From assembly GCA_003164335.1 (NCBI GenBank), contig PLTF01000010.1:37049-101048 (forward strand): DNA of 64,000 nucleotides. Reading direction: 5' to 3'. The position numbers and the translations under genes are program-made. This stretch comes from Fibrobacterota bacterium (GTDB taxonomy: Bacteria > Fibrobacterota > Chitinivibrionia > Chitinivibrionales > Chitinispirillaceae). Position 1 is the first letter of the stretch; every line of letters starts with the position of its first letter. The notes under the pieces were generated by a model. It did not search any database, was not told the DNA's origin, and worked only from the letters and a program-made list of their open reading frames with translations. This document shows, piece after piece, positions 4,598-18,762 of this stretch.

Positions 4598-5383
4598 GTG
4601 TTCTCTGATAATCAGATAGAGCGTTACAGCAGGCACATCCTCCTGAAGCAGCTCGGCACGACAGGACAGCAAAAACTTTGCGATGGCAGGGTGCTCATAG
4701 TCGGAGCCGGTGGACTCGGCTCTCCCGCCGCGCTCTATTGCGCCGCCGCAGGTGTCGGCACCATCGGGATCATAGATTATGACCGCGTTGAGCTTTCCAA
4801 CCTTCAGCGCCAGATCATTCACGCGGAGGGGGACATAGGCAGACTGAAAGCCGAATCGGCGGCGGATTCGATTCGCGCGATCAATGCCGATGTCTGCGTA
4901 CAGGCCTATACCGAGAAGTTTGCCGTTGAGAATGCCCGGTTGATTGTCCGGGAGTATGATTTCGTCATCGACGGAACCGACAACTTCGGCTCGAAATTCC
5001 TCGTTAATGATGCCTGTGTCCACGAAGGCAAACCGTTTTCACATGCCGGAGTGCTCCAATTCTCAGGACAGACCCTGACCGTTGTTCCCGGCAAGTCCGC
5101 ATGTTACCGATGCGTTTTTGAAGATCTCCCGCCTAAAGACGCCGTACCTTCATGTTCCCAGGCAGGCGTACTGAGTTCTGTTGTCGGCATCCTTGGTTCG
5201 ATCCAGGCGACCGAGGCTCTTAAGTACCTGGCTCAAATCGGCGAGCTCCTGACCGACTGCATTCTCACCTTCGATGCCCTGTCGATGGAATTCAGGAAAA
5301 TTACCGTTCGCAGAAATCCCGAGTGCCTGGCCTGCGGATCGAACGGTAAATGGCCGCTGCTGTATGGAGATCACTGTAACTGA
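4598..5383 (+). CDS. thiF: ThiS adenylyltransferase ThiF (MoeB/HesA/E1-like)
   Basis: E1-like enzyme that adenylates the C-terminal glycine of the sulfur carrier ThiS, preparing it for sulfur loading in thiazole synthesis. The 261-residue protein has the nucleotide-binding motif GAGGLGSPAALYCA, the RQIIH segment, the DGTDNF motif, and two zinc-type Cys pairs (CYRC near residue 168 and CLAC near 247). The start is GTG at 4598. MoeB is the closest alternative, but the neighbouring thiE-S-G-H genes favour ThiF. It lies upstream of the TPP riboswitch, so it may be made without TPP control. Confidence 0.85.
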   Translation: MFSDNQIERYSRHILLKQLGTTGQQKLCDGRVLIVGAGGLGSPAALYCAAAGVGTIGIIDYDRVELSNLQRQIIHAEGDIGRLKAESAADSIRAINADVCVQAYTEKFAVENARLIVREYDFVIDGTDNFGSKFLVNDACVHEGKPFSHAGVLQFSGQTLTVVPGKSACYRCVFEDLPPKDAVPSCSQAGVLSSVVGILGSIQATEALKYLAQIGELLTDCILTFDALSMEFRKITVRRNPECLACGSNGKWPLLYGDHCN

Positions 5384-5416
5384 TTCTGCTGCAAAGGGCC
5401 GAAGCAAATTGTATAT

Positions 5417-5512
5417 TGCTGATGGGGAGCCCGTATAACGGCGCTGAGAGTTCTGATGTTATCAGATAACCCGCATAACCTGATCCGGATAATGCCGGCG
5501 GAGGGAATGAGA
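5417..5512 (+). promoter_or_regulatory. TPP riboswitch (THI element) aptamer
   Basis: The conserved thi-box pieces occur in order: GGGGAGCC (5424-5431), a short P3 hairpin, CTGAGAG (5444-5450), a P3a hairpin with arms TCTGAT/ATCAGA, ACCC, then AACCTGATCCGGATAATGCC and GGCGGAGGGAA. Known members bind thiamin diphosphate and switch off downstream thi genes. It sits between thiF and thiE, so it should control thiE-thiS-thiG-thiH. The likely expression platform is the hairpin at 5528-5550. Confidence 0.93.
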
Positions 5513-5527
5513 TATGCCCGCATCCTT

Positions 5528-5550
5528 CCTTCCCGGATTTTACGGGAAGG
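5528..5550 (+). promoter_or_regulatory. Shine-Dalgarno-sequestering hairpin of the TPP riboswitch
   Basis: A perfect 8-bp stem, CCTTCCCG / CGGGAAGG, with a 7-nt loop. The right arm is the only good Shine-Dalgarno sequence before thiE. No T-run follows, so this looks like translational control and not a terminator. The aptamer 3' segment GGAGGGAA (5500-5507) can pair, with one G-U, to TTCCTTCC (5526-5533). That would free the ribosome site when TPP is absent. Confidence 0.6.
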
Positions 5551-5577
5551 GTCTCTATCAAAACCACAAATTTATAC

Positions 5578-6177
5578 TTGGTTCTCTGCAGCGAATGCTG
5601 CAATAATCGAGATCCGCTCATGGTGGCCAAAGATGCCATTAATGCCGGAATCGACATGTTGCAGATGCGCGAAAAAAACAGGTCCCGCAAGGAATTGCTG
5701 GTGCTGGGGACGGCCCTGGCTTCTTTGTGCAAAAAGAATAGCATCTTATTTATTGTCAATGACGATCCTCTGTTGGCCAAAAAGCTTAACGCCGATGGTG
5801 TTCATCTGGGCCAGGAAGACCTCCTCAGGTTTCCCTTGCTGGAAACACGAAACCTTTTAGGTAAAGATAAGATTATCGGATTGTCGACCCATTCGCCGGA
5901 GCAGTTTAAAATTGCCCAGGATCAGGATTTCGATTATTGTGCCTTTGGTCCGGTATTTTTTACCAAAACGAAAAGTTATTATATCGGCACAAATGATCTC
6001 GGAGAAGTATTCCAAATGGCTAAAAAGCCGGTGATCTGCATCGGCGGCATTACCTTGCGTAATGTGAAGAAATTAGTTGCACTGGGAGCAACCAACATTG
6101 CGGTGATTCGCGCCATAACCGAGGCCGGCGATATCGGTATGGCCGTGAAAAGTTTGAAGGATGCCTTATGTACATAA
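5578..6177 (+). CDS. thiE: Thiamin phosphate synthase ThiE
   Basis: Joins hydroxymethylpyrimidine diphosphate and thiazole phosphate to form thiamin phosphate. A small TIM-barrel enzyme of about 200 residues. Motifs: QMREK near residue 28, INDD-like VNDDPLLAKK, DGVHLGQEDL, the GPVFFTKTK phosphate loop and CIGGI. The coordinate uses a TTG start at 5578, but the frame is open upstream and encodes NLYLV, which matches the first strand of the family. TTG would cut that strand. The Shine-Dalgarno at 5544-5550 is best spaced for an ATC codon at 5557, so the true start is uncertain. The gene overlaps thiS by 10 nt and is more AT-rich than flanking regions. Confidence 0.88.
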   Translation: MVLCSECCNNRDPLMVAKDAINAGIDMLQMREKNRSRKELLVLGTALASLCKKNSILFIVNDDPLLAKKLNADGVHLGQEDLLRFPLLETRNLLGKDKIIGLSTHSPEQFKIAQDQDFDYCAFGPVFFTKTKSYYIGTNDLGEVFQMAKKPVICIGGITLRNVKKLVALGATNIAVIRAITEAGDIGMAVKSLKDALCT

Positions 6178-6368
6178 AGATTAACGGCAAAGATCAGGAA
6201 TTAAGCGGCGCATGCACCTTGGAAGAATTAGTGGTAAATAAAAATCTGATGAGAAATACTATCGTTATCGAGCAGAACGGCCTGATAATTCCGAAGAAGC
6301 AATGGGGCCGCGCGGCTATAGGGGAAGGTGATGTTATCGAAATCATTGGTTTTGTCGGAGGAGGTTAA
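6168..6368 (+). CDS. thiS: Sulfur carrier protein ThiS
   Basis: A 66-residue ubiquitin-like carrier. ThiF adenylates its C-terminus, which then becomes a thiocarboxylate and donates sulfur to ThiG. The protein ends in GFVGGG, with the obligatory terminal Gly-Gly, and has the expected short beta-grasp pattern. The ATG lies inside the end of thiE, and the stop abuts the thiG start, so translation is tightly coupled. Confidence 0.93.
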   Translation: MYIKINGKDQELSGACTLEELVVNKNLMRNTIVIEQNGLIIPKKQWGRAAIGEGDVIEIIGFVGGG

Positions 6369-7145
6369 ATGGATGATGTTTTAATGATCGGCGGGAGAAT
6401 GATTTCCAGCCGTTTATTTATTGGAACGGGAAAATTCGGCGATAACCGCCTGATCAAACCGGCATTGGAAAAATCCGGGGCAGCCGTGGTGACCGTCGCC
6501 CTGCGCCGTATAGACGATTCAGCCGGGGACGAAAATATCCTGAATTTTATTCCGAAAGACTGTATTCTGATGCCGAATACATCCGGTGCCCGTAATGCCG
6601 AAGAAGCAATAAGGATTGCCCGGCTTGCCAAAGCGTGCGGTATGGGAAATTGGATCAAGATCGAAGTTATCAATGACAATAAATATTTGTTACCGGATAA
6701 CCAGGAGACCTTGAAAGCGGTAGACATTTTGGCTAAAGAAGAGTTTGTCGTGTTACCGTATATGGTGCCGGATCTTTATGCGGCAAGGCGTATGGTTGAC
6801 GCCGGAGCAGCGGCAATAATGCCGCTTGGATCACCGATCGGATCCAACCGTGGATTAAAAACGAAAGAACTGGTCAGGATAATGATTAACGACAGCAGCG
6901 TTCCGGTGATCGTCGATGCCGGGTTAGGTATGCCTTCGGAAGCTGCCGAGTGCATGGAAATGGGGTGCGGAGCCGTCCTGGTAAATACCGCCATAGCCAC
7001 GGCGAAGGATCCCGTGGAGATGGCAATTGCCTTTAGTGAAGCGGTCCGCGGCAGCAGGCGGGCGTTTTTTGCCTCATCCGGCTATATCGGCGAAACGGCC
7101 GGAGCGTCATCGCCATTAACAGGTTTTCTGCGTGGAACTAACTAA
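6369..7145 (+). CDS. thiG: Thiazole synthase ThiG
   Basis: Forms the thiazole phosphate ring from deoxyxylulose 5-phosphate, dehydroglycine and ThiS thiocarboxylate. The 258-residue TIM barrel has the family segments RLFIGTGKF near the start, [28 protein letters not shown] with the Schiff-base lysine, [13 protein letters not shown], and the C-terminal [11 protein letters not shown] motif. The ATG follows the thiS stop directly and is preceded by GGAGGAGG within thiS. DXP is also the substrate of Dxr, encoded nearby. Confidence 0.96.
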
Positions 7146-7146
7146 T

Positions 7147-8244
7147 ATGGATTTTTATGATATTATCTTAAATTATCGGGAATTTGATTTTAAGCAGGCG
7201 CTATGCAGCGTGACGGCGCGTGACGTTTCTGTCGCTATCGATTCCGATGCTTCTGCCGATAAAAGGTTATTGGCGCTATTGTCTCCTGCCGCGGGCGAGC
7301 TGTTGGAAGATATGGCGCAGGAATCTCAAGCGCAGACCTTGCGCTATTTCGGGAGATCGATACAATTATATACACCGATGTATTTATCGAACTACTGCGA
7401 AAATCAATGTGTATATTGCGGGTACCAGACCAGGAACCCCATGGCGCGGAAAAAGCTTTCTTTAGAAGAAGTGGATAAAGAGGCTGCGCATATAGCGGGT
7501 TTAGGGTTCAGGCATATTTTGATATTGACAGGCGAGTCTCATACCATGAGCCCTGTTGCATATATTAAAGATTGCGTAAAGATCCTGCAAAAATATTTCA
7601 GTTCGATATCCGTTGAAATCTATCCCTTACAGCTGCCGGAGTACCGCGAGTTGGTAGCCGCCGGTATCGATGGCCTGACGTTATATCAAGAAACCTATGA
7701 CCGGATTCTGTATGATGCATTGCATGTGCGCGGTCCGAAAAAAGATTATAAAAATCGACTGGATGCGCCGGATCGCGGCGCATGGGCAGGCGTTCATTTT
7801 ATTAATATCGGTGCATTACTCGGGTTAAGCGATTGGCGTGTTGAAGCGTTTTTCATGGGAATGCATGCAAAATACCTGCAGGATAAATTCCCAGGCAGCG
7901 AAATAGGAATTTCGGTGCCTCGTATCCAGCCGCATGAGGGCTGCTATAAACCGGAATCAATTGTTCGTGACAGTGAATTGGTTCAGATCGTTACTGCGAT
8001 GCGGCTGTTTATGCCGCGCGCCTCAATTGCCCTTTCAACAAGGGAAAATCGTGAACTGCGCGACAATCTTATGCCGCTTGGGATCACCCGGATGTCGGCA
8101 TCGTCAAGCACTGCGGTGGGCGGTCATACCATTAACCAGAACGGTTTTAAGCAATTCGAAATATCGGACAAAAGAGACCTTGAGCAGGTAAAACTGGCTA
8201 TACGTTCGGCCGGTTATCAGCCGGTTCTGAAAGATTGGGTATGA
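7147..8244 (+). CDS. thiH: 2-iminoacetate synthase ThiH (radical SAM tyrosine lyase)
   Basis: Radical S-adenosylmethionine enzyme that splits tyrosine into p-cresol and dehydroglycine for ThiG. It is the oxygen-sensitive alternative to the glycine oxidase ThiO and fits an anaerobe. The 365-residue protein carries the cluster motif CENQCVYC (Cx3Cx2C) near residue 80, then YCGYQTRN, the HILILTGESH segment and GISVPRIQPH. I chose ATG 7147, one base after the thiG stop. An in-frame GTG at 7132 would overlap thiG. It is the last gene of the riboswitch-controlled group. Confidence 0.94.
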   Translation: MDFYDIILNYREFDFKQALCSVTARDVSVAIDSDASADKRLLALLSPAAGELLEDMAQESQAQTLRYFGRSIQLYTPMYLSNYCENQCVYCGYQTRNPMARKKLSLEEVDKEAAHIAGLGFRHILILTGESHTMSPVAYIKDCVKILQKYFSSISVEIYPLQLPEYRELVAAGIDGLTLYQETYDRILYDALHVRGPKKDYKNRLDAPDRGAWAGVHFINIGALLGLSDWRVEAFFMGMHAKYLQDKFPGSEIGISVPRIQPHEGCYKPESIVRDSELVQIVTAMRLFMPRASIALSTRENRELRDNLMPLGITRMSASSSTAVGGHTINQNGFKQFEISDKRDLEQVKLAIRSAGYQPVLKDWV

Positions 8245-8271
8245 ACAACTATGATCTGACGTGTCTTCAAT

Positions 8272-8289
8272 CAGGCTCAGGGCGAACGA
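8272..8289. repeat. Single arm of the dispersed inverted repeat
   Basis: CAGGCTCAGGGCGAACGA is the reverse complement of the left arm of the element at 4313-4388, with one mismatch. Only one arm is present, so this is a remnant or partial insertion downstream of thiH. Confidence 0.55.
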
Positions 8290-8357
8290 CGAATGCTGAA
8301 ACTTACCCATGAACTGATTGGTAATCCGCAATTTCAAAACAGGTTCATAAATACCTC

Positions 8358-8409
8358 TTGAATGGAGTGGACGCCCGCTGTATTTTATAATCGATAATAT
8401 TATATCGAA
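8358..8409 (+). promoter_or_regulatory. Promoter and probable Rex operator upstream of rex1
   Basis: A possible -35 TTGAAT (8358-8363) and -10 TATTTT (8381-8386) lie 17 bp apart. Immediately downstream is TAATCGATAA (8388-8397) and TTATATCGAA (8400-8409), giving two TCGA cores whose centres are 14 bp apart. The same core spacing occurs before rex2 at 12084-12109. Autoregulation by Rex is inferred. Confidence 0.55.
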
Positions 8410-8421
8410 TCCAGGGGTCTC

Positions 8422-9069
8422 ATGGCATTAACTCCCGACAGGCGTTTTTCTATCCCGACCATCCGCCGGTTGCCCGGCTACTACGCCTGTCTCGAACATG
8501 CTGCAGCGCAGGGAATTGCGGCGATATCCTCCACCACCATTGCCGGGCACCTCAACCTCGATCCGATAATGGTACGCAAGGATCTCGAAAGCATCGGCGC
8601 GGCGGGACGTCCCAAGATAGGTTTCAATGTCGCCGAGCTTCTGGCCGTTATCAAAGAGTTTATGGGCTGGGGAAGGCTCGATGAGCTTATCATTGCCGGA
8701 TGCGGCGATCTCGGCGCCGCGCTTATGGGGTACAAGGGCTTCCCTCGTCGGGGATTCCGCATCGTCGCCGGGTTTGACAGGGACCCGGTATTGGAAGGCG
8801 TGACGATTCACGGCATCCAGATATTTCCCATGGAAAAAATGGCGAACCTGATAGCCCGATTGCACATCGAAATAGGCCTCATTGCCGTTCCGGCCAAGGC
8901 CGCACAGCAGGTCGCCGACCAGATGATCACCGGGGGTGTGCGGGGCATCTGGAACTTCTCTTCCGCTGCGCTCAAGGTGCCTGCAAGGGTCATCGTGCAG
9001 CAGGAAGACCTGACCGCCTCACTGGTTATCCTGCAGAAGAATCTTTTGAAAGAGACGGTACCATCATGA
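8422..9069 (+). CDS. rex: Redox-sensing transcriptional repressor Rex (copy 1)
   Basis: Rex repressors bind DNA when NAD+ is high and release it on NADH binding. The 215-residue protein has the N-terminal winged helix (LPGYYACLEH..., then MVRKDLESIGAAGRPKIGF near residues 50-70) and a Rossmann domain with the glycine-rich motif AGCGDLGAAL and GFDRDP. Length is typical. It overlaps the hydS start by four bases, placing it at the head of a three-gene operon with the sensory hydrogenase and a PP2C phosphatase. The operator-like twin site just upstream suggests autoregulation. A second Rex, clearly divergent, heads the next operon. Confidence 0.95.
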   Translation: MALTPDRRFSIPTIRRLPGYYACLEHAAAQGIAAISSTTIAGHLNLDPIMVRKDLESIGAAGRPKIGFNVAELLAVIKEFMGWGRLDELIIAGCGDLGAALMGYKGFPRRGFRIVAGFDRDPVLEGVTIHGIQIFPMEKMANLIARLHIEIGLIAVPAKAAQQVADQMITGGVRGIWNFSSAALKVPARVIVQQEDLTASLVILQKNLLKETVPS

Positions 9070-10787
9070 ATCCGCAGCAGCCGATATTTACCGAAAAAGC
9101 CCATTGCCAGGACTGTTACCGCTGTCTCCGGGGGTGCCCGGTAAAGGCGATAAAGATCGAGGAGGGCAGCGCGTCGGTGGTCGACGAACTCTGCATCCAT
9201 TGCGGTTCCTGCGTCAACACCTGTCCCGGCGGAGCCAAGCGGGTGCGTGACGACCGCACCCGGGTCCGCGAGCTTCTGGCCTCGGGAAAGCGGGTCATCG
9301 CATCGCTTGCTCCCTCGTATGTTGCCGAGTTCAGGGACCGGGACCCCGCAACGATCATCGCGGCACTGCGCAGGCGGGGGTTTTACGGTGTCTCGGAAAC
9401 CGCCCTCGGTGCGGAAGAGGTTTCCGCCCATGTTGCCGACCTCATCGACAACCGGGAACCGGGGCTGTGGATATCCAGCGCCTGCCCCGTTGTCGTACGG
9501 TACATCCGTAATTACCGCCCGGCTCTGGCCCGGTCGCTGACCCCGTTCCTGTCGCCGCTCCTCGCTCACTGCAAACTGCTGAAAAGAGAGTTCGGCCGGG
9601 ATACCTACGTGGTGTTTTACGGTCCCTGTATTGCCAAGAAGGACGAGGCATACGAGCATCCGGACCTGCTCGAAGCTGCCTTGACCTTTGAAGACCTTCG
9701 GGAACTTATCGATGCCGCCGCTATTGACGGCGGCGCCGTCTCGCCGGCTGAAAGATTCATCCCTCATGCTGCCGAAGAGGGGGCGCTGTATCCCATCGAC
9801 GGCGGTATGGTCGCCTCGCTCCGGAAGCAGTGCCCGGTCTGCGATCACCGGACCCAGCATTTTTCCGGACTGGAAGAAATCTGCGCCATCCTTGATTGCA
9901 TTGAGAAAGAAAGGCCCGACCGGCCCCTGTTCCTGGAGCTCCTGTCATGTTCCGGCGGATGCATCAACGGGCCTCGGACCAGGAAAGAGGGCGGCACCCT
10001 GGTCAGGCGGCTTGGTGTGCTGGAACGCAGCGTCATCGACGGCGCCGAGATTCCCCGTCCGGTGTCCATCGATATCCCTGCCGCCTATCACTCCCGGGAG
10101 CTGTCCGCACCGATCTTTTCCGAGGAAGAGATCGGCTCCGTTCTTGCGAAAACCGGAAAGCTGTCGCGCGGCGACGAGCTGAATTGCGGCGGGTGCGGCT
10201 ACGGCAACTGCCGCGATTTTGCCCAGGCGGTGCTCAGCGGAAAAGCCGAGACCGCCATGTGCGTGTCGTATCTGAGGAAGCTGGCCACCAAGAAGGCAAA
10301 CAAACTGATTATGACCATGCCCTCCGGAGTGGTGATTGTCGATAAAAACCTTCGCATCATCGAATGCAATGCCCGCTTCGCGGCACTGGCAGGCAAGGAT
10401 GCCGTTACTATTTATAAGCAGCGCCCCGGCATGGGAGGAGCGGTGCTCGAAAAAATCCTGCCGGTTTCGAACCTGTTCCGCCACATCATCGAAGCCGACG
10501 ACGATATCCTCGACCGGGACCTGCACCTCGGAACAAGGGTAATCCATTGCAGCATTTTTTCCATTGAGCCCGGCACGATCGCCGGAGGGGTATTCAACGA
10601 TGTTACGGCCCCGGAATTGCAGCGGGAGGAGGTCATCGACCGCGTCCAGAACGTCATCCGCAACAATCTGACCACGGTTCAGAAGATCGCCTATCTTCTC
10701 GGGGAGAACGCCTCGGAGACCGAAATGCTGCTTTCGACGATCATCGAAAGCTTCAAACCGTTGCAGCCCGGAGACGACGATGTCTGA
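9066..10787 (+). CDS. hydS: Putative sensory [FeFe]-hydrogenase (HydS, group C type) with PAS domain
   Basis: A 573-residue protein: two [4Fe-4S] ferredoxin motifs at the N-terminus (CQDCYRCLRGCP; CIHCGSCVNTCP), an H-cluster domain (about 75-350), a further four-Cys domain (CGGCGYGNC near 373-380, with AMC later), then a PAS domain (about 415-520) and a helical tail. The three H-cluster motifs are present but modified: SSACP in place of T/SCCP, GPCIAKK, and CSGGCINGP. Replacement of the first Cys of the CC pair by Ala removes the proton-relay cysteine, as described for HydS-type enzymes. This argues for H2 sensing over fast catalysis. It overlaps both neighbours and probably signals through the downstream phosphatase. 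Maturases hydEFG are not in the window. Confidence 0.9.
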   Translation: MNPQQPIFTEKAHCQDCYRCLRGCPVKAIKIEEGSASVVDELCIHCGSCVNTCPGGAKRVRDDRTRVRELLASGKRVIASLAPSYVAEFRDRDPATIIAALRRRGFYGVSETALGAEEVSAHVADLIDNREPGLWISSACPVVVRYIRNYRPALARSLTPFLSPLLAHCKLLKREFGRDTYVVFYGPCIAKKDEAYEHPDLLEAALTFEDLRELIDAAAIDGGAVSPAERFIPHAAEEGALYPIDGGMVASLRKQCPVCDHRTQHFSGLEEICAILDCIEKERPDRPLFLELLSCSGGCINGPRTRKEGGTLVRRLGVLERSVIDGAEIPRPVSIDIPAAYHSRELSAPIFSEEEIGSVLAKTGKLSRGDELNCGGCGYGNCRDFAQAVLSGKAETAMCVSYLRKLATKKANKLIMTMPSGVVIVDKNLRIIECNARFAALAGKDAVTIYKQRPGMGGAVLEKILPVSNLFRHIIEADDDILDRDLHLGTRVIHCSIFSIEPGTIAGGVFNDVTAPELQREEVIDRVQNVIRNNLTTVQKIAYLLGENASETEMLLSTIIESFKPLQPGDDDV

Positions 10788-11976
10788 TGAACCGGGCCTG
10801 CCGGCGTTTGCACTTGACATAAAGGCTTTCCAGCGGCATAAGCGGAAGCAGCGCATCTGCGGCGATACCTTCGTCTTCAGGCGCCTGCGCGAAGAGAAAC
10901 GGTCCATTGCCGTGCTCTCCGACGGCCTGGGCAGCGGCATAAAGGCCAATGTTCTGTCCGCGCTCACGGCAACCATGGCGCTGCGGTTTACCGCCGGGTT
11001 TCGCGACCTGCAGAAGACCGCTGAAATCATCATGGAGACGCTGCCCGTCTGCAGCGTGAGGAAAATCAGCTACGCCACCTTCTGCATCATCGACATCGAT
11101 GCCCTCGGTGATGTGCGCCTCATCAACTACGACAGCCCAGCGCCGATCCTGATACGCAACGGCGTGCCGGTCGCAATCGAGAGTTCGTCGATTTCGGGAC
11201 GCAACGCTGAGCGAGAGTATCAACTCAGTTACAGCAAATTCCCCCTCTCCTTCAACGACCGGATCGTGTTCTTTACCGATGGGGTGACGCAGGCGGGAAT
11301 CGGTTCCACCATGTATCCCATGGGCTGGGGTGTATCCGAGCCGGCAAGGTTCGCCGCCGGGATCGTAACCGCAACCGCCGACTGCCCTGCCCGGACCCTG
11401 GCCCGCAGAATCGTCCAGGAAGCCTATTCGATCGACGCCGGCAGCGCCGGCGACGACATGACCTGCGCCGTCATTCACTACCGTAAGCCCCGCGAGCTGC
11501 TCATCGCCTCGGGCCCGCCTGTGCTGCCGCAAAACGATGTTGCCTATGTGAAGGCTGTCGATAGCTTTGCCGGCAGGAAGATCATCTGCGGCGGGACAAC
11601 CTCCAAAATAGTGGCGCGCGAACTTGGCAGATCCATCACCATCAACCTGAGCGATTTGAATCCGGTACTCCCCCCGCAATCATCCATCGACGGCATCGAC
11701 CTGGTGACCGAGGGCATCATTACGCTGCACGCCCTGGCCAAACTGCTCGAATCGCCGAAGGATCTCGACGACATAAAGCCCTCGCCTGCCAAGTCGATCC
11801 TTGAACGGATGCTCGAAAGCGATATCGTTCATTTTCTTATCGGAACCCGCATTAACGCGGCCTGGCAGGACCCTTCGATTCCCGCTGAAATGGGTCTCCG
11901 CCGAACGATAATCAGTCAGATCGTTACCTCTCTCGAACGACGCCACCAGAAAGAGACCAAGCTTCGGTACCTGTGA
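10780..11976 (+). CDS. SpoIIE/PP2C-type serine/threonine phosphatase
   Basis: A 398-residue protein whose first ~230 residues form a SpoIIE-type PP2C domain. Metal-binding motifs are visible: SDGLGSG near residue 47, FFTDGVTQAG near 165 and GDDMTCAVIHY near 225. The remaining ~160 residues are not recognised. There is no N-terminal sensor domain, so it presumably receives input from HydS, whose frame it overlaps by 8 nt. HydS genes in other anaerobes are commonly next to such phosphatases or Ser/Thr kinases. The substrate is unknown; no kinase or STAS gene is adjacent, though a STAS protein is encoded at 26376-26690. Confidence 0.88.
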   Translation: MSDEPGLPAFALDIKAFQRHKRKQRICGDTFVFRRLREEKRSIAVLSDGLGSGIKANVLSALTATMALRFTAGFRDLQKTAEIIMETLPVCSVRKISYATFCIIDIDALGDVRLINYDSPAPILIRNGVPVAIESSSISGRNAEREYQLSYSKFPLSFNDRIVFFTDGVTQAGIGSTMYPMGWGVSEPARFAAGIVTATADCPARTLARRIVQEAYSIDAGSAGDDMTCAVIHYRKPRELLIASGPPVLPQNDVAYVKAVDSFAGRKIICGGTTSKIVARELGRSITINLSDLNPVLPPQSSIDGIDLVTEGIITLHALAKLLESPKDLDDIKPSPAKSILERMLESDIVHFLIGTRINAAWQDPSIPAEMGLRRTIISQIVTSLERRHQKETKLRYL

Positions 11977-12054
11977 AACCGGGCGTTTGCCTTCACCGGC
12001 ACGATCCTGGATAAGACCCTCCGCTCATCTTAAACCGGCCTCCACAAAAAAGTA

Positions 12055-12109
12055 TTGACACGCTTCCGGCCTTTTGGTATATTCTTATCGATAAATAATT
12101 ATCGATAAG
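12055..12109 (+). promoter_or_regulatory. Sigma-70-type promoter with twin palindromic operator upstream of rex2-hydCBA
   Basis: TTGACA (12055-12060) and TATATT (12078-12083) are separated by exactly 17 bp. The next bases form CTTATCGATAA, a 4-bp spacer, then TTATCGATAAG (12084-12109): an 11-bp perfect inverted repeat in which each TTATCGATAA is itself a palindrome. The site covers the expected transcription start, ideal for repression. Rex is the likely ligand because the next gene is rex and a similar site precedes rex1. Confidence 0.8.
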
Positions 12110-12139
12110 CTTTGAACTATTAACAACTGCCGAAAACTT

Positions 12140-12811
12140 ATGTTCAACGATTCCATTTCAACCGCCGCACTGAGAAGATTGCCGCTCTATCTCCAGTACC
12201 TTCTCGAAATCAGGCCGGGAAAACACGAATTTGTCTCGGCGGCCCGCATGGCCACCGCCCTCGGCATCCATCATACCTTGGTAAGGCAGGACCTCGATGT
12301 TGTCGGCGCCAAGGGGTTCCCGAAGAAGGGGCATCCGCTCGAAGAGACGATCGCGGCCATCGAAACCTATTTCCAGTGGAACAGCCGTCCATCCGCATTC
12401 ATTCTGGGTGCGGGCAACCTGGCGCGGGTACTCATCGGCTATCGGCAGTTCGATCGGGCCGGTGTCGATCTTCTGGCGGCGTTCGACCAGGACAGCCGCA
12501 AGGTGGGCACCTCGATCTTCGGCATCGAAGTGCTTTCGGTAACCAAGTTCGTCGACCTGGTTCGTCGCATGCACGTGGCCATCGTAATCCTGACACTCCC
12601 GCCGTCGGCTGCGGAAGAATCGGTGAAGCTCATTACCGAATCCGGCGTTGCGGCGGTATGGAACTTCATGCCGGCAACCCTGCAGTTCCCCGACCGGGTC
12701 GTCGTAGAAAACGTCAATCTGTTCGCAGGCCTTTCCATCCTGAAAAAAAAATTAACCGAATCGCTCAACCGTAAGGAGCCAGCAAATGAACACGGCAACG
12801 GCAGTACATAA
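12140..12811 (+). CDS. rex: Redox-sensing transcriptional repressor Rex (copy 2)
   Basis: A 223-residue Rex paralogue with winged-helix segment LRRLPLYLQYL and LVRQDLDVVGAKGFPKKG, a Rossmann motif ILGAGNLARVL, and AFDQDS at the end of the second strand. It differs widely from copy 1 in sequence, so this is not a recent duplication. It lies behind a strong promoter and twin operator and overlaps hydC by about 26 nt, so NADH-responsive control of the bifurcating hydrogenase is a sound inference. Whether each Rex reads its own site or both is unknown. The Shine-Dalgarno before ATG 12140 is weak. Confidence 0.94.
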   Translation: MFNDSISTAALRRLPLYLQYLLEIRPGKHEFVSAARMATALGIHHTLVRQDLDVVGAKGFPKKGHPLEETIAAIETYFQWNSRPSAFILGAGNLARVLIGYRQFDRAGVDLLAAFDQDSRKVGTSIFGIEVLSVTKFVDLVRRMHVAIVILTLPPSAAEESVKLITESGVAAVWNFMPATLQFPDRVVVENVNLFAGLSILKKKLTESLNRKEPANEHGNGST

Positions 12812-13295
12812 ACAGACGCGCCAGTTCACCGCCGTTTGTGAAATCCTGAAGAAACACCGGAACGACCGCCGGCAGCTGATACCCATCCTCCAGCAGGTCC
12901 AGGAGGTCTACCGGTATCTTCCGCCGACGATCATGTCCTTCATCGCCTCCACCCTGCGCATCCCGGCCTCCCGGGTCTACGGGGCGGCAACATTCTACCG
13001 GCATTTCGCCCTCAAGCCGAAAGGAAAGCATGTCATACGGGTCTGTGACGGCACCGCCTGCCACGTCAAGGGAAGCGGCGCGATAGCAGAGACGCTGCGC
13101 TCCCACCTGAAGCTCAACAGCGGCGAGGACACCACCTCGGACATGCTCTTTACTCTAGAAACAGTATCCTGCCTGGGTGCCTGCGGCATTGCGCCGGTCA
13201 TGGTCGTCAACGAAACGGTGCACGGACAACTGTCGCCGGCCCATGCCTGTACCATCATCGATTCCATTAAGAAAAGCGAGGTCCGTCATGATTAA
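12786..13295 (+). CDS. hydC: Bifurcating [FeFe]-hydrogenase gamma subunit (NuoE-like)
   Basis: A 169-residue NuoE/HoxE-like thioredoxin-fold protein carrying one [2Fe-2S] cluster. The four Cys ligands are in CDGTACHVKGS (near 86-91) and CLGACGIAP (near 129-133). The N-terminal helical half (LIPILQQVQEVYRYLPP) is typical. It is the small electron-transfer subunit of the HydABC complex that couples NADH and reduced ferredoxin to H2. It overlaps rex2 upstream and hydB downstream, so the order is rex2-hydC-hydB-hydA. Confidence 0.94.
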   Translation: MNTATAVHKQTRQFTAVCEILKKHRNDRRQLIPILQQVQEVYRYLPPTIMSFIASTLRIPASRVYGAATFYRHFALKPKGKHVIRVCDGTACHVKGSGAIAETLRSHLKLNSGEDTTSDMLFTLETVSCLGACGIAPVMVVNETVHGQLSPAHACTIIDSIKKSEVRHD

Positions 13296-15192
13296 TGATA
13301 CCGCCTGCCCCGTCGCGACCGATCGGCAGGGCCACTACCGGTCCGTTCTCGACTCCGTCAAAAAGCGCGTCATCCTGTGCGCCGGAACCGGCTGCATCGC
13401 CAATGGCTCGCTCAAGGTAATGGAAGCCATGGAAGCGGCCTGCCGGCTGCATGGAACCCCGGTTTCCGTCGAACTCCGCTACGAAGACGATGTAACCGCC
13501 ACGCCGCTCTACCTTTCACGAAGCGGCTGCCAGGGATTCTGCCAGATGGGACCGCTCGTCACCATTGAGCCCGACGGCATTCTCTACACCAGCGTCAAGC
13601 CCGAAGACTGCGATGAGATCGTCCTGCGGACTATAATCAAGGGCGAGCGCATCGAACGGCTCCTCTTCAAGGATCCTGCGTCGGGTGTCATCTGCCGCGG
13701 GGTCGGTGAAATACCTTTCTATACGCGCCAGGCACGTTCGGTGCTCGCGCCCTGCGGATCGATTGACCCGGAGTGCATCGAAGAATACCTGGCAGCGGGC
13801 GGTTACCAGGCGGCACGACATGCGATCGAGGCCATGGCTCCCGAAGAGATCTGCCGTCTCATTCTCGAATCCGGGCTGCGCGGGCGCGGCGGCGGCGGCT
13901 TTCCAACCGGCAAGAAATGGGAACTCACCCGCATTGCCGCCGGGAACATTAAATACATCATCTGTAACGGCGACGAAGGGGACCCGGGGGCGTTCATGGA
14001 CCGGTCGGTGATGGAGGGAAATCCGCACAGCGTGGTCGAGGGAATGATGATCGCCGCAAAGGCGGTCGGTGCAAACCAGGGCTATGTTTACGTCCGCATG
14101 GAGTATCCACTGGCGGTCAAACACATGCGCAAGGCGGTGGAGGATGCCCGCAGTCAGGGGCTTCTCGGCGACGCCGTCTTCGGCAGCGAGTTTTCTTTCG
14201 ACATCATCATCATGGAAGGGGCCGGAGCCTTCGTCTGCGGCGAGGAGACCGCGCTTATCGCCTCGATCGAGGGACGGCGCGGCATGCCCGACCCGAAACC
14301 GCCGTTTCCGGCCCAGAAGGGGCTCATGGGATGTCCCACGGTCATTAATAATGTTGAAACCTTCAGCACCGTGCCGCTCATTGTCAGGGGCGGACCCGGA
14401 ACGCTGCGAAAGGTGGGTACGCCCGCCTCCCCGGGAACCAAGACCTTTGCCCTGACCGGACATGTGGTCAATACCGGACTCATCGAAGTGCCGTTCGGCA
14501 CGACGCTCCGCACCATCATTTACGACATCGGCGGCGGCGTAACCGGCGCAGACGGAAAGATCGATCCGGACGGTTTCAAGGCCGTGCAGATAGGCGGACC
14601 CTCGGGTGCGTGCCTGACACGGGAACATCTCGACCTGCCGCTCGATTTCGATTCGCTCAGGAGCATCGGCGCGATGATCGGTTCCGGCGGCCTGGTGGTC
14701 ATGAACCATACGACCTGCATGGTGCGCATTGCGCGCTACTTCATGCAGTTCGCGCAGAACGAGTCGTGCGGGAAATGCATCACCTGCCGCGAGGGAACGC
14801 GGCAGATGCTGGCCCTGCTCGACGATATCGTTGAGGGGAACGGCAATGCCGGAACGCTCGAACTGCTGCAGATCACGGCGCGGGTCGTTGCAAAAGCATC
14901 GCTCTGCGGCCTCGGCAAGAGCGCGCCCAGCCCGGTCATTTCGACCCTGCGGCACTTTGCCGACGAGTACCGGGCCCATATTGTCGACAAACGGTGTCCT
15001 GCAGGCGAGTGCCAGGCGCTCAGCCGCCCGGCAATCAAGGCCGACCAGTGCATCGGTTGCGCCCTTTGTGTCAAGAGCTGTCCGGTGGGGGCGATCACCG
15101 GGGAACGCCGTCAACCCCACAGCATCGATGCCGATCGCTGCATCAACTGCCGCGCCTGTGTCGCGGTCTGCAAACTTCACGCTATAGCATAA
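13288..15192 (+). CDS. hydB: Bifurcating [FeFe]-hydrogenase beta subunit (NuoF-like, NADH-binding)
   Basis: A 634-residue flavoprotein that binds NAD(H) and FMN, the presumed bifurcation site. Order: N-terminal thioredoxin-like [2Fe-2S] domain (CAGTGCIANGS; SGCQGFCQMGP), NuoF core with GLRGRGGGGFPTGKKW near residue 195 and the NGDEGDPGAFMDR segment, an SLBB region, the ESCGKCITCREG [4Fe-4S] motif near 495, and two C-terminal ferredoxin clusters (CIGCALCVKSCP; CINCRACVAVC). The ATG at 13288 lies in the last codons of hydC with GAGG upstream. A longer frame upstream is entirely inside hydC and is rejected. Confidence 0.95.
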   Translation: MINDTACPVATDRQGHYRSVLDSVKKRVILCAGTGCIANGSLKVMEAMEAACRLHGTPVSVELRYEDDVTATPLYLSRSGCQGFCQMGPLVTIEPDGILYTSVKPEDCDEIVLRTIIKGERIERLLFKDPASGVICRGVGEIPFYTRQARSVLAPCGSIDPECIEEYLAAGGYQAARHAIEAMAPEEICRLILESGLRGRGGGGFPTGKKWELTRIAAGNIKYIICNGDEGDPGAFMDRSVMEGNPHSVVEGMMIAAKAVGANQGYVYVRMEYPLAVKHMRKAVEDARSQGLLGDAVFGSEFSFDIIIMEGAGAFVCGEETALIASIEGRRGMPDPKPPFPAQKGLMGCPTVINNVETFSTVPLIVRGGPGTLRKVGTPASPGTKTFALTGHVVNTGLIEVPFGTTLRTIIYDIGGGVTGADGKIDPDGFKAVQIGGPSGACLTREHLDLPLDFDSLRSIGAMIGSGGLVVMNHTTCMVRIARYFMQFAQNESCGKCITCREGTRQMLALLDDIVEGNGNAGTLELLQITARVVAKASLCGLGKSAPSPVISTLRHFADEYRAHIVDKRCPAGECQALSRPAIKADQCIGCALCVKSCPVGAITGERRQPHSIDADRCINCRACVAVCKLHAIA

Positions 15193-15203
15193 GGAGAGAG
15201 ACC

Positions 15204-17240
15204 ATGACTGCTACCGCTCAGATAACGGTCGACGGGATGCGGGTCGCCCTCAACGGCGAACGCAACCTGCTCGAAGTAATCCGCAAGGCGCATATCGATA
15301 TCCCGACATTCTGCTATCACAGTGAGCTTTCGATCTATGGGGCCTGCCGCCTCTGCATGGTCGATGTGGAAGGCCGCGGCCTGGTCGCATCGTGTGCGGC
15401 GATTCCCGAAGACGGCATGGTCGTGCACACGACCACCGACGAGATCCGGGAGATCCGCCGCGTCAATCTTGAAATGCTCCTCGCCAACCATGATTCAGAC
15501 TGTCCTTCGTGTCCGAAGAACGAAACCTGCAAACTGCGGGCTCTTGCCGCACGGCTCGGGGTCAGGGAGATACGGTACCGGAACATCGCCGTCAAGGGGC
15601 AGCGCGACACGACCTCGCCGTCACTGGTGCGCGACCCCAGCAAATGCATTCTCTGCGGCGACTGCGTCCGCTACTGCGAGGAAGTCCAGGGAATCGGGGC
15701 AATCGGGTTCTGCGGACGGGGATCGCATTCCACGGTCAGCCCGCCCTTTGAAAAGGGCCTCGGCAATGTTGAATGTGTCAATTGCGGCGGTTGCGCCACC
15801 GTGTGCCCGACCGGTGCCATTACGCCTGCCGACGATACCGCCCCGGTATGGAAACTCCTGCGCGACCCGTCCGTCACCGTCGTTGCCCAGATCGCCCCTG
15901 CAGTCCGCGTGGCGCTCGGGGAGGTGTTCGGTCTCGAGCCCGGCGAAGTGGTGACCGGAAGAATCATCGCGGCAATGAAGCGGCTCGGGTTCAACCAGGT
16001 TTTCGATACCGGCTTTGCCGCGGACCTTACCGTCGTGGAGGAAGCGCACGAGCTGCTGCCGATCGTCACGCGCGGGGGACATAACTTCCCGCTCCTGAGC
16101 TCCTGCTGCCCCGCATGGGTCAAGAAGGCGGAGTATTTTGACAGCGACCTGCACGACCACCTCTCGAGCTGCCGCTCTCCGCAGCAGATGTTCGGATCGC
16201 TGGCGCGGGTGCAACTCGGTCCGACCCTCCCACCGGGAAAAAAACTTGCCGTGATTTCCATAATGCCCTGCACCGCGAAAAAATTCGAAGCCTCGCGACC
16301 CGAGTTCTCGAAAGACGGCGTGAGGGATGTCGATGTCGTCCTGACGACCCAGGAACTGGCCGGAATGATCCGCGAAGCCGGGATACAACTCGAAGAGCTG
16401 GAACCCGCCTCCTTCGATCTTCCCCTTGGATTTGCAACCGGGGCCGGATTGATTTTCGGCACATCGGGCGGCGTCTCCGAAGCGGTGGTCCGTTACCTTG
16501 CGGCAGAGCTGAAGGTACCGACGCCGGCCGTCGCCTTTACCGAAGTGGATGGCAACAGCGGCATCCGTGAGGCATCGGTCACCCTGGGCGAGCACACGGT
16601 CTCGATCGCGGTTGTCCAGGGGCTGAAGAATGCCGACCTGGTGCTCGATACCATACGCAAAAAGACCTGCCGTTACGATTTCGTCGAGATCATGGCCTGC
16701 CCCGGCGGCTGCATCGGAGGCGCGGGCCAGCCGGTCCCGCAAAAGAAAGAGACACGGATGCAGCGATCGGCCGGACTGCGGCAGATCGATTCCGTGCTGC
16801 CGGTCCACAAGGCGCAGGACAACCCGTTTGTCACCGATTGCTATGCCCGGCTTCTCAAGCATCCCGGAAGCCAGGAAGCGCGCAGCCTGCTGCATACCTC
16901 GTACTTCTCCCGCAAACGGGAAGAGGAAGACGGCATTGAACTCGGCGACCAGGATCGTTCGTCGACCGCGCTGCGCGTGCGCGTCTGCGTCGGGACGAGC
17001 TGCTACCTGCGGGGCGCCCACAACCTGCTGCAGAAAATCCTGGCGGGAATCGAGGAGCACGAACTTCAGGACGCGGTGAATGTCCAAGCTACGTTCTGCA
17101 TGGAAACCTGCGAACTCGGCCCGAGTGTTGCAATAGGAAACCGGTGGCTCCGCTCCGCCACCTATGAAAAAGTGATGGAAGAGATCAACGGCACCCTGGA
17201 GGAACAGAAGAAGCATGATGCCCGTGTCACCGCATCTTAA
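15204..17240 (+). CDS. hydA: Bifurcating [FeFe]-hydrogenase catalytic alpha subunit
   Basis: A 678-residue catalytic subunit that holds the H-cluster. N-terminal NuoG-like part: [2Fe-2S] (CYHSELSIYGACRLC), His-Cys [4Fe-4S] (HDSDCPSCPKNETC), and two [4Fe-4S] motifs (CILCGDCVRYC; CVNCGGCATVCP). The H-cluster domain has full motifs SSCCPAW, MPCTAKKFE and MACPGGCIGGAGQP, so it should be catalytically competent, unlike HydS. The C-terminal ~110 residues form an extra thioredoxin-like [2Fe-2S] domain (CVGTSCYLRG; CMETCELGP), typical of trimeric bifurcating enzymes. ATG 15204 is preceded by AAGGAGAGAG. Confidence 0.96.
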   Translation: MTATAQITVDGMRVALNGERNLLEVIRKAHIDIPTFCYHSELSIYGACRLCMVDVEGRGLVASCAAIPEDGMVVHTTTDEIREIRRVNLEMLLANHDSDCPSCPKNETCKLRALAARLGVREIRYRNIAVKGQRDTTSPSLVRDPSKCILCGDCVRYCEEVQGIGAIGFCGRGSHSTVSPPFEKGLGNVECVNCGGCATVCPTGAITPADDTAPVWKLLRDPSVTVVAQIAPAVRVALGEVFGLEPGEVVTGRIIAAMKRLGFNQVFDTGFAADLTVVEEAHELLPIVTRGGHNFPLLSSCCPAWVKKAEYFDSDLHDHLSSCRSPQQMFGSLARVQLGPTLPPGKKLAVISIMPCTAKKFEASRPEFSKDGVRDVDVVLTTQELAGMIREAGIQLEELEPASFDLPLGFATGAGLIFGTSGGVSEAVVRYLAAELKVPTPAVAFTEVDGNSGIREASVTLGEHTVSIAVVQGLKNADLVLDTIRKKTCRYDFVEIMACPGGCIGGAGQPVPQKKETRMQRSAGLRQIDSVLPVHKAQDNPFVTDCYARLLKHPGSQEARSLLHTSYFSRKREEEDGIELGDQDRSSTALRVRVCVGTSCYLRGAHNLLQKILAGIEEHELQDAVNVQATFCMETCELGPSVAIGNRWLRSATYEKVMEEINGTLEEQKKHDARVTAS

Positions 17241-17499
17241 TATTGAGCTCTGCCTCGGCAGTTCCTGTTACTGCCGGGGCAACGGCGGCATCCGAGCCGG
17301 TCTGCCCGATCTGATTGCACGGCGCGGTTGGCACGAGTCGGTAAGCATCAAAGGCTGCCTGTGCCGTGAATCGTGTGCAAAGGGGCCGATGGTATTCCTG
17401 AACGGCGTCGCGAATGTCGTGCATAACATAAGCGAGCTGGAGAAGCTCATTGAAATCGAGCTTCGCCGGACGCCTTGCCCTATGCAGGAAGAGGGGTAG
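17215..17499 (+). CDS. Small [2Fe-2S] thioredoxin-like ferredoxin
   Basis: A 94-residue stand-alone thioredoxin-like ferredoxin with Cys ligands in CLGSSCYCRGN and CLCRESCAKGP. It overlaps the end of hydA and resembles the C-terminal domain of HydA and the N-terminal domain of HydB, so it probably arose from the same domain family. It may act as an additional electron carrier or subunit of the hydrogenase. The start may be 17215 or the next ATG at 17218. Specific partner unknown. Confidence 0.8.
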   Translation: MMPVSPHLNIELCLGSSCYCRGNGGIRAGLPDLIARRGWHESVSIKGCLCRESCAKGPMVFLNGVANVVHNISELEKLIEIELRRTPCPMQEEG

Positions 17500-18363
17500 G
17501 GGGGCATCCGGGTCGCGAAGAGTTGCAGCGGCGGACCGTTCAGGCGGTCGCCGCCATCCATATAGTGCTTGCTAAGAATGACATATCCTTCCAGCGCTAC
17601 CGCTGGCCCAAGCTGCAGCAGGTGACCTTCCACTTTCCACTTTTCTAACCACGTGGCCTGGATCTTTGATCCAGGTGCTTTTGATCTCTCAGAGGTTATC
17701 GCAAGGATTTTGCAGAGACGAAGCGCGCTCTGTCTCTTCGACCGGGGTGAGCCATAGTTCCCTATTTTTATTATTTTAAAAGACCTCCCGGCTCCATGCC
17801 GATCTCGATGCAACAATCCGGGTCCGCTGATGGAGCACTTGCTCGCAACGGCAAAAAATCTGCCGCCTTGCTTCGCGGGAGATTATTTTTGATTGTTCCG
17901 GATGCGAAGGTAAAATCACCGTTACCGAAAATCTGCGGGACCGGCTCAAAATTGAACTGAAACACTTGAATGTAAGCGAACCGACCGCTGAAAAAGCCTT
18001 TTCGAAGCCCAGGAAAAAATCGACAGTGAAAAGAACGAACTGATGCGGGATATTGAGCGCCGGCTGCGTCAGACAGCAAAGGTCAGGGTAGGATAAAAAA
18101 AGGAAGCAACGCTTTTGGGGCCACCATAGAAATCGGAGCCACCCCTTGGCCGAGCTTCCAGTAATAAAGATACGATATTGTCCGGTTTGGCACAAGCCGC
18201 TTGCGCGAACCAATTAACGTGCATACCCCGCTTAAACCAGAACTCGATGCGTACGAATATTGATTTACGGTAACATTTACGCGGACACCGGGAAAAATTA
18301 CCGGTAAGAATGCGGGCGACAATCATAGGGTGAAACCAGGAGTAAAAACTATGAGAGATACTC
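17500..18363. other. Decayed intergenic stretch with coding relics
   Basis: About 860 bp without an intact gene. Short plus-strand frames look like broken genes: one around 17510-17650, one at 17887-18094 interrupted by a frameshift, and one around 18190-18300 reading REPINVHTPLKPELDAYEY before a stop. The last weakly recalls the C-terminus of AlbA/divergent-AAA ATP-binding proteins. Together with the truncated rhuM that follows, this suggests a degraded accessory or defence-type island. Confidence 0.45.
17887..18094 (+). pseudogene. Frameshifted gene relic, family not identified
   Basis: Two overlapping frames join into one plausible protein: LRDRLKIELKHLNVSEPTAE in one frame and EAQEKIDSEKNELMRDIERR in another, with the shift near 18000 at a run of A and T. 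The charged helical pattern is like the C-terminal tails of prokaryotic helicase-type proteins, but this is not a secure match. No start is visible and the frame ends at a TAA near 18094. Confidence 0.35.
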
Positions 18364-18762
18364 TTGGCAAAGAAAAATATTAAAAAGAGCCTACAAACCC
18401 AGGAATCCAATTTCCTGCTCTATAAAACGGACGACGGAGCGATCAAAGTCGAGGTCGTATTCCACGGCGAGACCATCTGGCTGACCCAGATAAAAATGGC
18501 TGAGCTGTTTGATGTAGATATCCGGACGGTCAGCGAACACCTGCAAAATGTTTTTAAAGCCCAAGAACTTTCCCAGGAATCAGTTATCCGGAAATTCCGG
18601 AATACTGCCGAAGATGGGAAATCATATGAAACTCAATTTTATAATCTCGATGCGATAATCTCCGTCGGCTACCGGGTAAATTCCGTCCGTGCCACGCAGT
18701 TTCGAATCTGGGCGATGAAAGTTTTATCTAAATCATGTTTTGCTGCGGGACGGGCTGCCTGA
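18364..18762 (+). pseudogene. Truncated RhuM-family protein
   Basis: The first ~118 residues match the RhuM family: SNFLLYKTDDGAIKVEV, WLTQIKMAELFDVDIRTVSE (helix-turn-helix-like), FRNTAEDGKSYETQFYNLDA, and VGYRVNSVRATQFRIWAMKV. Full-length members are more than 300 residues. Here the frame shifts after KVL and ends in unrelated residues, with the catalytic/Fic-like remainder missing. The start would be TTG at 18364. A further frame after the break (about 18730-18843) is a relic of unknown origin. A short second copy of the N-terminal coding sequence is at 21499-21545. Confidence 0.7.

Follow-up and report, generated by a model that had tools for sequence, protein, structure and literature searches.

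The two rex genes described here, rex1 and rex2, belong with high confidence to a distinct branch of the Rex family that would recognize the operator TCGATA-N6-TATCGA and block its own hydrogenase operons when NADH is low. They are located within a 64,000-nucleotide stretch of DNA (the window) from a genome assigned to the Fibrobacterota by a kinship table and by the presence of the same genes in named relatives. An exact copy of this operator precedes each gene; the operator is rare in the genome and, in other bacteria, is associated with one branch of Rex proteins that carry changed DNA-contact residues and with genes of the type controlled by Rex.

In both operons, the rex gene comes first (Table 1). 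rex1 is followed by the genes for a HydS-like hydrogenase with a PAS domain and a SpoIIE phosphatase, and rex2 is followed by those for NuoE, NuoF, HydA, and a small ferredoxin-like protein of 94 aa. The latter ORF has no Pfam match and is also found in relatives as a neighbor of hydrogenase genes (tblastn). The assignment of both regulators to the Rex family, made in an earlier note on this DNA, is borne out by the presence in each of the N-terminal winged helix PF06971 (54 bits in rex1 and 42.9 bits in rex2, with a cutoff of 27) and the Rossmann NAD(H)-binding domain PF02629; the rex1 product also matches solved Rex structures with an E value of 4e-35. Both promoters named in that note were located, including the weaker one before rex1, and they share a common register, with the 18-bp operator core starting 5 nt past the end of the -10 hexamer. 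A search of window positions 8000-18500 against Rfam produced no matches, which ruled out an RNA element at the rex operons. Positions 4598-8244, which end just 5' of the rex1 promoter, likely encode thiamine synthesis (ThiF-, ThiE-, ThiG-, and ThiH-like products, recognized by eye).

Table 1. Layout of the two rex operons (window coordinates)
Feature	Position	Strand	Basis
rex1 weak promoter, TTGAAT-17-TATTTT	8358..8386	+	sequence and register; below promoter-scan threshold
rex1 operator core TCGATAATATTATATCGA	8391..8408	.	exact match, 1 of 2 in genome
rex1, 215 aa, Rex family, Pro wing (GRPKIGF)	8422..9069	+	Pfam PF06971, PF02629
hydS-like sensory-type [FeFe] hydrogenase, Fe_hyd_lg_C + FeS + PAS, 573 aa	9066..10787	+	Pfam
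SpoIIE-type phosphatase, 398 aa	10780..11976	+	Pfam
rex2 operon promoter, TTGACA-17-TATATT	12055..12083	+	promoter scan, 11/12 matches
rex2 operator core TCGATAAATAATTATCGA	12088..12105	.	exact match, 1 of 2 in genome
rex2, 223 aa, Rex family, Pro wing (GFPKKGH)	12140..12811	+	Pfam, alignment columns
NuoE-like [2Fe-2S] subunit (electron-bifurcating hydrogenase)	12786..13295	+	Pfam
NuoF-like flavoprotein subunit	13288..15192	+	Pfam; start codon picked by eye
catalytic [FeFe] hydrogenase HydA	15204..17240	+	Pfam; approximate start
small ferredoxin-like ORF, 94 aa	17215..17499	+	ORF list, tblastn to relatives

The earlier note described the sites as a twin operator with fixed spacing, reading TAATCGATAATATTATATCGAA before rex1 (positions 8388-8409) and CTTATCGATAAATAATTATCGATAAG before rex2 (positions 12084-12109). 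Both sequences are as it gave them, the CG centers are indeed 14 bp apart at each site, and the two genes do share one operator type. However, the motif is best read not as a twin but as a single 18-bp inverted repeat, TCGATA-N6-TATCGA, of the normal Rex-site size, its half-sites having the same length and spacing as those of the canonical TTGTGA-N6-TCACAA. As in the canonical Rex operator (ROP), an 18-bp inverted repeat with a 6-bp spacer lies at each promoter. The half-sites themselves differ from TTGTGA and TTGTTA, as that note had maintained: positions 1, 3, and 6 (T, G, and A) are the same in both codes, whereas positions 2, 4, and 5 are not. No canonical site is visible 5' of rex1 or rex2, and none is scored there at up to one mismatch.

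It could be argued that each TTATCGATAA palindrome is a separate operator that binds its own Rex dimer, with the 14-bp spacing marking a cooperative pair. Each half is indeed a near-perfect palindrome, and chains of three to five units at 14-bp spacing are present in 23 of the 93 promoters of the branch. Yet 14 bp is exactly the distance between half-site centers in the 18-bp canonical Rex site, which is spanned by a Rex dimer in a solved structure with a 22-bp duplex (PMC8836258); most of the promoters (65 of 93) contain exactly two units; in several (rex1, L048, and L054), only the inner TCGATA...TATCGA is preserved and the flanks outside it have decayed; and single palindromes in the source genome show no association with rex genes. 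Because the spacing equals that of one canonical Rex site, two independent operators per promoter were rejected, and this arrangement appears unlikely. At rex1, where the inner repeat is exact and the outer flanks are degenerate, the sequence favors a single 18-bp inverted repeat.

TATCGATA, the half-site together with its flanking bases, is palindromic in itself, which allows sites to follow one another at 14-bp intervals. Among the promoters of the branch, ATCGAT units are separated by 14 bp in 98 pairs (a count that includes the pair required by the DNA scan in each of the loci L162-L279, longer chains not being required), by 28 bp in 16, and by 42 bp in 5. In L177, L196, L236, L333, L336, and L309, three or four TATCGATA units follow one another at exactly 14 bp within one promoter and so form overlapping operators; the promoter of L196, from Flexilinea flocculi, has four.

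In the 3.8-Mb source genome, TCGATA-N6-TATCGA has only two exact copies, those before rex1 and rex2, and the same pattern read backwards has none. The genome scan proposed in the earlier note, for paired motifs upstream of redox genes, thus returned rex1 and rex2 only, with no exact site before any other redox gene. Allowing one mismatch yields 8 sites versus 3 backwards, and all six additional sites are within open reading frames, which ruled out a wider regulon in this genome. Random scatter of the motif, which that note had named as an argument against its own proposal, is not seen for the spaced pair but is seen for the single palindrome TTATCGATAA, with 15 genome copies versus 5 backwards. 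One such lone copy, at window positions 59256-59265, lies within a CheA-like ORF and exemplifies a single palindrome that is not an operator. Scattered copies of this kind are the one observation in favor of a chance or compositional motif. That explanation is refuted by the position of the spaced pairs, both of which precede rex genes, and by the location before rex of 71 of the 118 listed loci found by the DNA scan described below; its probability is negligible.

The source genome encodes, in addition to the two branch members, a canonical-type Rex (L101), a B-type Rex with a TTGTGA site (L073), and a truncated Rex ORF (L115). The last of these, 71 aa long and located on contig C129 near position 38502, has a canonical-looking GTGAAAGCTTTCAC upstream, precedes a second NuoE-NuoF-HydA set, and is perhaps a decaying rex. 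In the tree of NAD-binding domains, Rex1 groups with L080 and L084, and Rex2 is found elsewhere in the branch, so neither is a recent copy of the other. The L080 and L084 loci have a single rex followed by nuoE-nuoF-hydA-fd-hydS in one stretch; in the source genome, the same gene set is split into two operons that share one operator type.

A survey of Fibrobacterota revealed 70 Rex-like matches over the whole set, with 60 relatives. Ten of these are of the rex1 type and are mostly the first genes in hydrogenase operons; L050 is truncated at a contig end, L046 has its hydrogenase genes in divergent orientation, and the stretch retrieved around L052 contains no counterpart of the hydrogenase genes of the window. 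The exact site is located directly upstream of nine of the ten, and the tenth gene, L046 of genome G034, has one good half only. The 59 remaining full-length Rex genes all lack the site within 300 bp, even when one mismatch is allowed (L050 and L115, both shorter than 150 aa, were left out of this count, of the NAD-domain tree, and of the residue counts). Canonical sites are detectable in these genomes, given that their B-type Rex genes carry canonical TTGTGAAA-N-TTTCACAA adjoining the -10 box. Across 167 Fibrobacterota genomes, the exact motif occurs 30 times versus 20 backwards, which means that beyond the rex genes most exact sites are due to chance; the nine sites at rex genes make up most of the excess.

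The operator is not peculiar to the source genome; it is a signature of a wide Rex branch and is found before branch rex genes and genes of hydrogen and alcohol fermentation in at least 12 bacterial phyla. A scan of ~85,000 genomes with the strict pattern TATCGATA-W6-TATCGATA produced at least 118 loci. Among the matches listed, a Rex ORF in the right direction lies directly downstream in 71 of 118, with a median distance of 59 bp from the operator to the chosen rex start codon. These 71 loci come (by NCBI ranks) from Bacillota (40), Spirochaetota (6), Ignavibacteriota (5), Chloroflexota and Thermodesulfobacteriota (3 each), and Omnitrophota, Planctomycetota, and Fibrobacterota (2 each), with single loci in Synergistota, Myxococcota, Bacteroidota, and Macinerneyibacteriota and four unplaced. 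A hydrogenase-operon gene is found within 5 kb downstream in 36 of the 71 listed Rex loci; all seven long ORFs tested after rex encode AdhE, and one other ORF encodes LDH.

Genes downstream of the operator other than rex are mostly classic Rex targets, including HydA. In 30 of the 47 listed loci without an adjacent Rex, one ORF near the operator was searched against Pfam (in L165, L166, L208, and L212, the scanned ORF was not the hydrogenase-side gene). By tally, the operator in 25 of these 47 loci is followed by a gene for a hydrogenase, Fe-ADH, LDH/MDH, thiolase, ALDH, or alanine dehydrogenase; the remaining ones look unrelated or gave no clear gene. Altogether, 96 of the 118 listed loci have a Rex (71), hydrogenase-type (11), Fe-ADH (8), LDH/MDH (2), ALDH (2), thiolase (1), or alanine dehydrogenase (1) gene; this tally leaves out L215, L261, and L265, and three of its hydrogenase-type loci (L208, L253, and L272) are represented by short ferredoxin-like matches only. 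A gene for a LysR-type regulator adjoins the operator in L182 and L200, which have no adjacent Rex, and follows rex in L183. A profile scan of the genome contigs found no conserved stretch.

The same association was observed starting from the protein. When 196 Clostridia and 149 Spirochaetota genomes were searched with a profile built from 24 branch members, the 30 top-ranking loci of each set were inspected for a site with no more than one mismatch within 330 bp. Among the best 30 clostridial loci, the site accompanies 11 of 16 Rex genes with Pro in the wing (10 of 15 without L303, which, like L333, is itself a copy of a sequence in the profile) and none of the 14 others, for one of which (L319) the wing residue was not called. 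An exact triple site lies ~1.3 kb upstream of L309. Among the best 30 loci in Spirochaetota, the site is found at 3 of 14 Pro-wing Rex genes and at none of the 16 others. A Treponema-like group (L337-L345) encodes Pro-wing Rex proteins of the branch with no TCGATA operator upstream of any of them, which suggests that the operator has been lost or changed there. The exact AT-spaced pattern occurs 8 times in the 196 Clostridia genomes versus 4 times backwards; five of these sites are at rex genes, one at an Fe-ADH gene, one at a PFOR-like gene (the latter two named by eye from the translation), and one is unexplained.

Operator type follows the protein phylogeny. The NAD-domain tree (199 rows and 131 columns, quick search) places all 90 site-bearing Rex rows within a single group of 108 (SH-aLRT 91, not starred) and needs two changes of operator type; three of the 93 site-bearing rows were too short to be included. 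In the Thermotoga maritima Rex, Arg48 reads G5, Lys49 reads G7/A8, and Arg60 and Gly61 contact T4 and T3 in the minor groove (PMC8836258). This complete set is found in neither rex1 nor rex2: Arg48 is kept in both and Lys49 is kept in rex1 and replaced by Gln in rex2, while Arg60 and Gly61 are replaced by Pro and Lys, respectively, in both. Given that Arg60 is often absent also from A-type and B-type Rex proteins with canonical sites, the changed set marks the branch and does not exclude these proteins from the Rex family. In the 93 site-bearing Rex proteins, with the wing residue taken from alignment columns, residue 60 is Pro in 88, Ala in 4, and Ser in 1; residue 61 is Lys or Arg in 90; Ser45 is replaced by Val or Ile in 87; residue 48 is Arg in 87 and Lys in 6; and Lys49 is kept in 91.

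The loss of the minor-groove Arg and the T-to-C change at half-site position 2 fall at the same place. However, position 5 has changed from G to T even though its contact, Lys49, stays, so the contact logic is incomplete. Wing Pro as the sole determinant of specificity was ruled out by two Fibrobacterota proteins: L079, which combines a Pro-Lys wing with a TTGTGA site of the canonical type, and its sister L077, with a Pro wing, TGTGA-like repeats, and no called site. Both are Pro-wing Rex proteins outside the branch and are encoded first in nuoE-nuoF-hydA operons.

The NAD-binding site is retained in the branch, with GxGxxG in 92, Tyr100 in 89, and Asp115 in 92 of the 93 site-bearing proteins, so NADH sensing is likely. 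It consists of G-G-G, Tyr, and Asp in rex1 and of GxGxxA, Tyr, and Asp in rex2. Tyr100, which stacks on the nicotinamide, is kept in only 15 of 29 Rex proteins with canonical sites and is Ser in L073; NADH sensing may be different in such B-type proteins. Cross-talk between Rex1 and Rex2, suggested in the earlier note, is plausible because both belong to the branch; Rex2 deviates, by its Gln49, at one base-contacting residue.

These features are consistent with a model of regulation, predicted from sequence and from known Rex proteins. A Rex dimer would sit on the 18-bp inverted repeat as canonical Rex does on TTGTGA-N6-TCACAA, just downstream of the -10 box and overlapping the transcription start. 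At low NADH, bound Rex would block its own hydrogenase operon; a rise in NADH would release it, allowing the synthesis of H2-forming enzymes that could dispose of the electrons of NADH. Arg48, the predicted reader of the G at position 3, is kept by the branch protein, whereas the wing residues expected to make minor-groove contacts with positions 1 and 2 are swapped (Arg60 to Pro and Gly61 to Lys or Arg).

A very improbable alternative is that the Rex operons are controlled through these sites by a different regulator of hydrogen metabolism, e.g., one that receives its signal from HydS and the SpoIIE phosphatase. HydS and this phosphatase often share the operons in question, but the sites also precede lone rex genes and rex-adhE and rex-ldh operons, and an unsystematic look at the loci revealed no second DNA-binding gene that recurs. 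Moreover, the type of site goes with the Rex branch in the phylogeny and with the residues of the Rex-DNA interface, which another regulator would not explain.

The canonical ROP operator is TTGTGAANNNNTTCACAA, with the variant TTGTTAANNNNTTAACAA in Clostridiaceae, and TTGTGAA or TTGTTAA consensus sites are given in PMC6391272, PMC9600882, and PMC8457756. The branch shares with this system the protein family, the 18-bp inverted repeat with 6-bp half-sites 6 bp apart, the position by the -10 box, and the targets (rex, hydrogenase, adhE, ldh, and PFOR-like genes). It differs in the half-site TCGATA, which is self-palindromic and often arrayed at 14 bp, in the Pro-Lys/Arg wing in place of Arg60-Gly61, and in forming a separate branch of NAD domains. 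Among the papers listed from the open literature, here without the 2012 Rex survey, none ties a TCGATA/ATCGAT motif to Rex, in agreement with the new variant proposed in the earlier note. As far as seen, TCGATA-N6-TATCGA is new as a Rex operator, while the Rex family and the 18-bp site geometry are known.

A candidate member is Rex_1799 (Cthe_0422) of Clostridium thermocellum, described as a divergent second Rex with 36 and 34% identity to characterized clostridial Rex proteins; the available text of that paper gives no DNA motif for it (PMC8457756). Its locus number is near those of the hfs hydrogenase operon Clo1313_1793-1796 (PMC5707799). Rex_1799 may be a member of the TCGATA branch, a membership predicted from its description. 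In Ruminococcus albus, both Rex and HydS have been proposed as regulators of the bifurcating hydrogenase HydABC (cited in PMC10084766); no TCGATA-type operator is described for this system in the available text of that paper.

A further possibility, for and against which the chances are about even, is an early division of the Rex family into two lineages, one reading TTGTGA/TTGTTA and the other TCGATA; cells like that of the source genome, which have both kinds of Rex, could then run two separate NADH regulons in parallel. The same even chances apply jointly to a division of labor, in which one regulon would serve general metabolism and the other [FeFe] hydrogenase (in Clostridia, AdhE, LDH, and Fe-ADH), and to a role of the 14-bp phased arrays, on which repressor dimers might bind in overlapping registers and give a sharper response.

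Searches for Rex regulons that start from TTGTGA/TTGTTA, such as the one in PMC9600882, would overlook the branch together with the redox regulation of numerous hydrogenase and alcohol operons in anaerobes from gut, rumen, and sediment. The branch may also provide the connection between hydrogenase operons and adhE that the available text of PMC5707799 leaves open. The two codes pose a defined question of specificity, namely, which of the wing residues 60 and 61 and the helix residue 45 turns TTGTGA into TCGATA. With a second operator code, NADH regulons insulated from each other are predicted within one cell, and the TCGATA code offers an orthogonal NADH switch.
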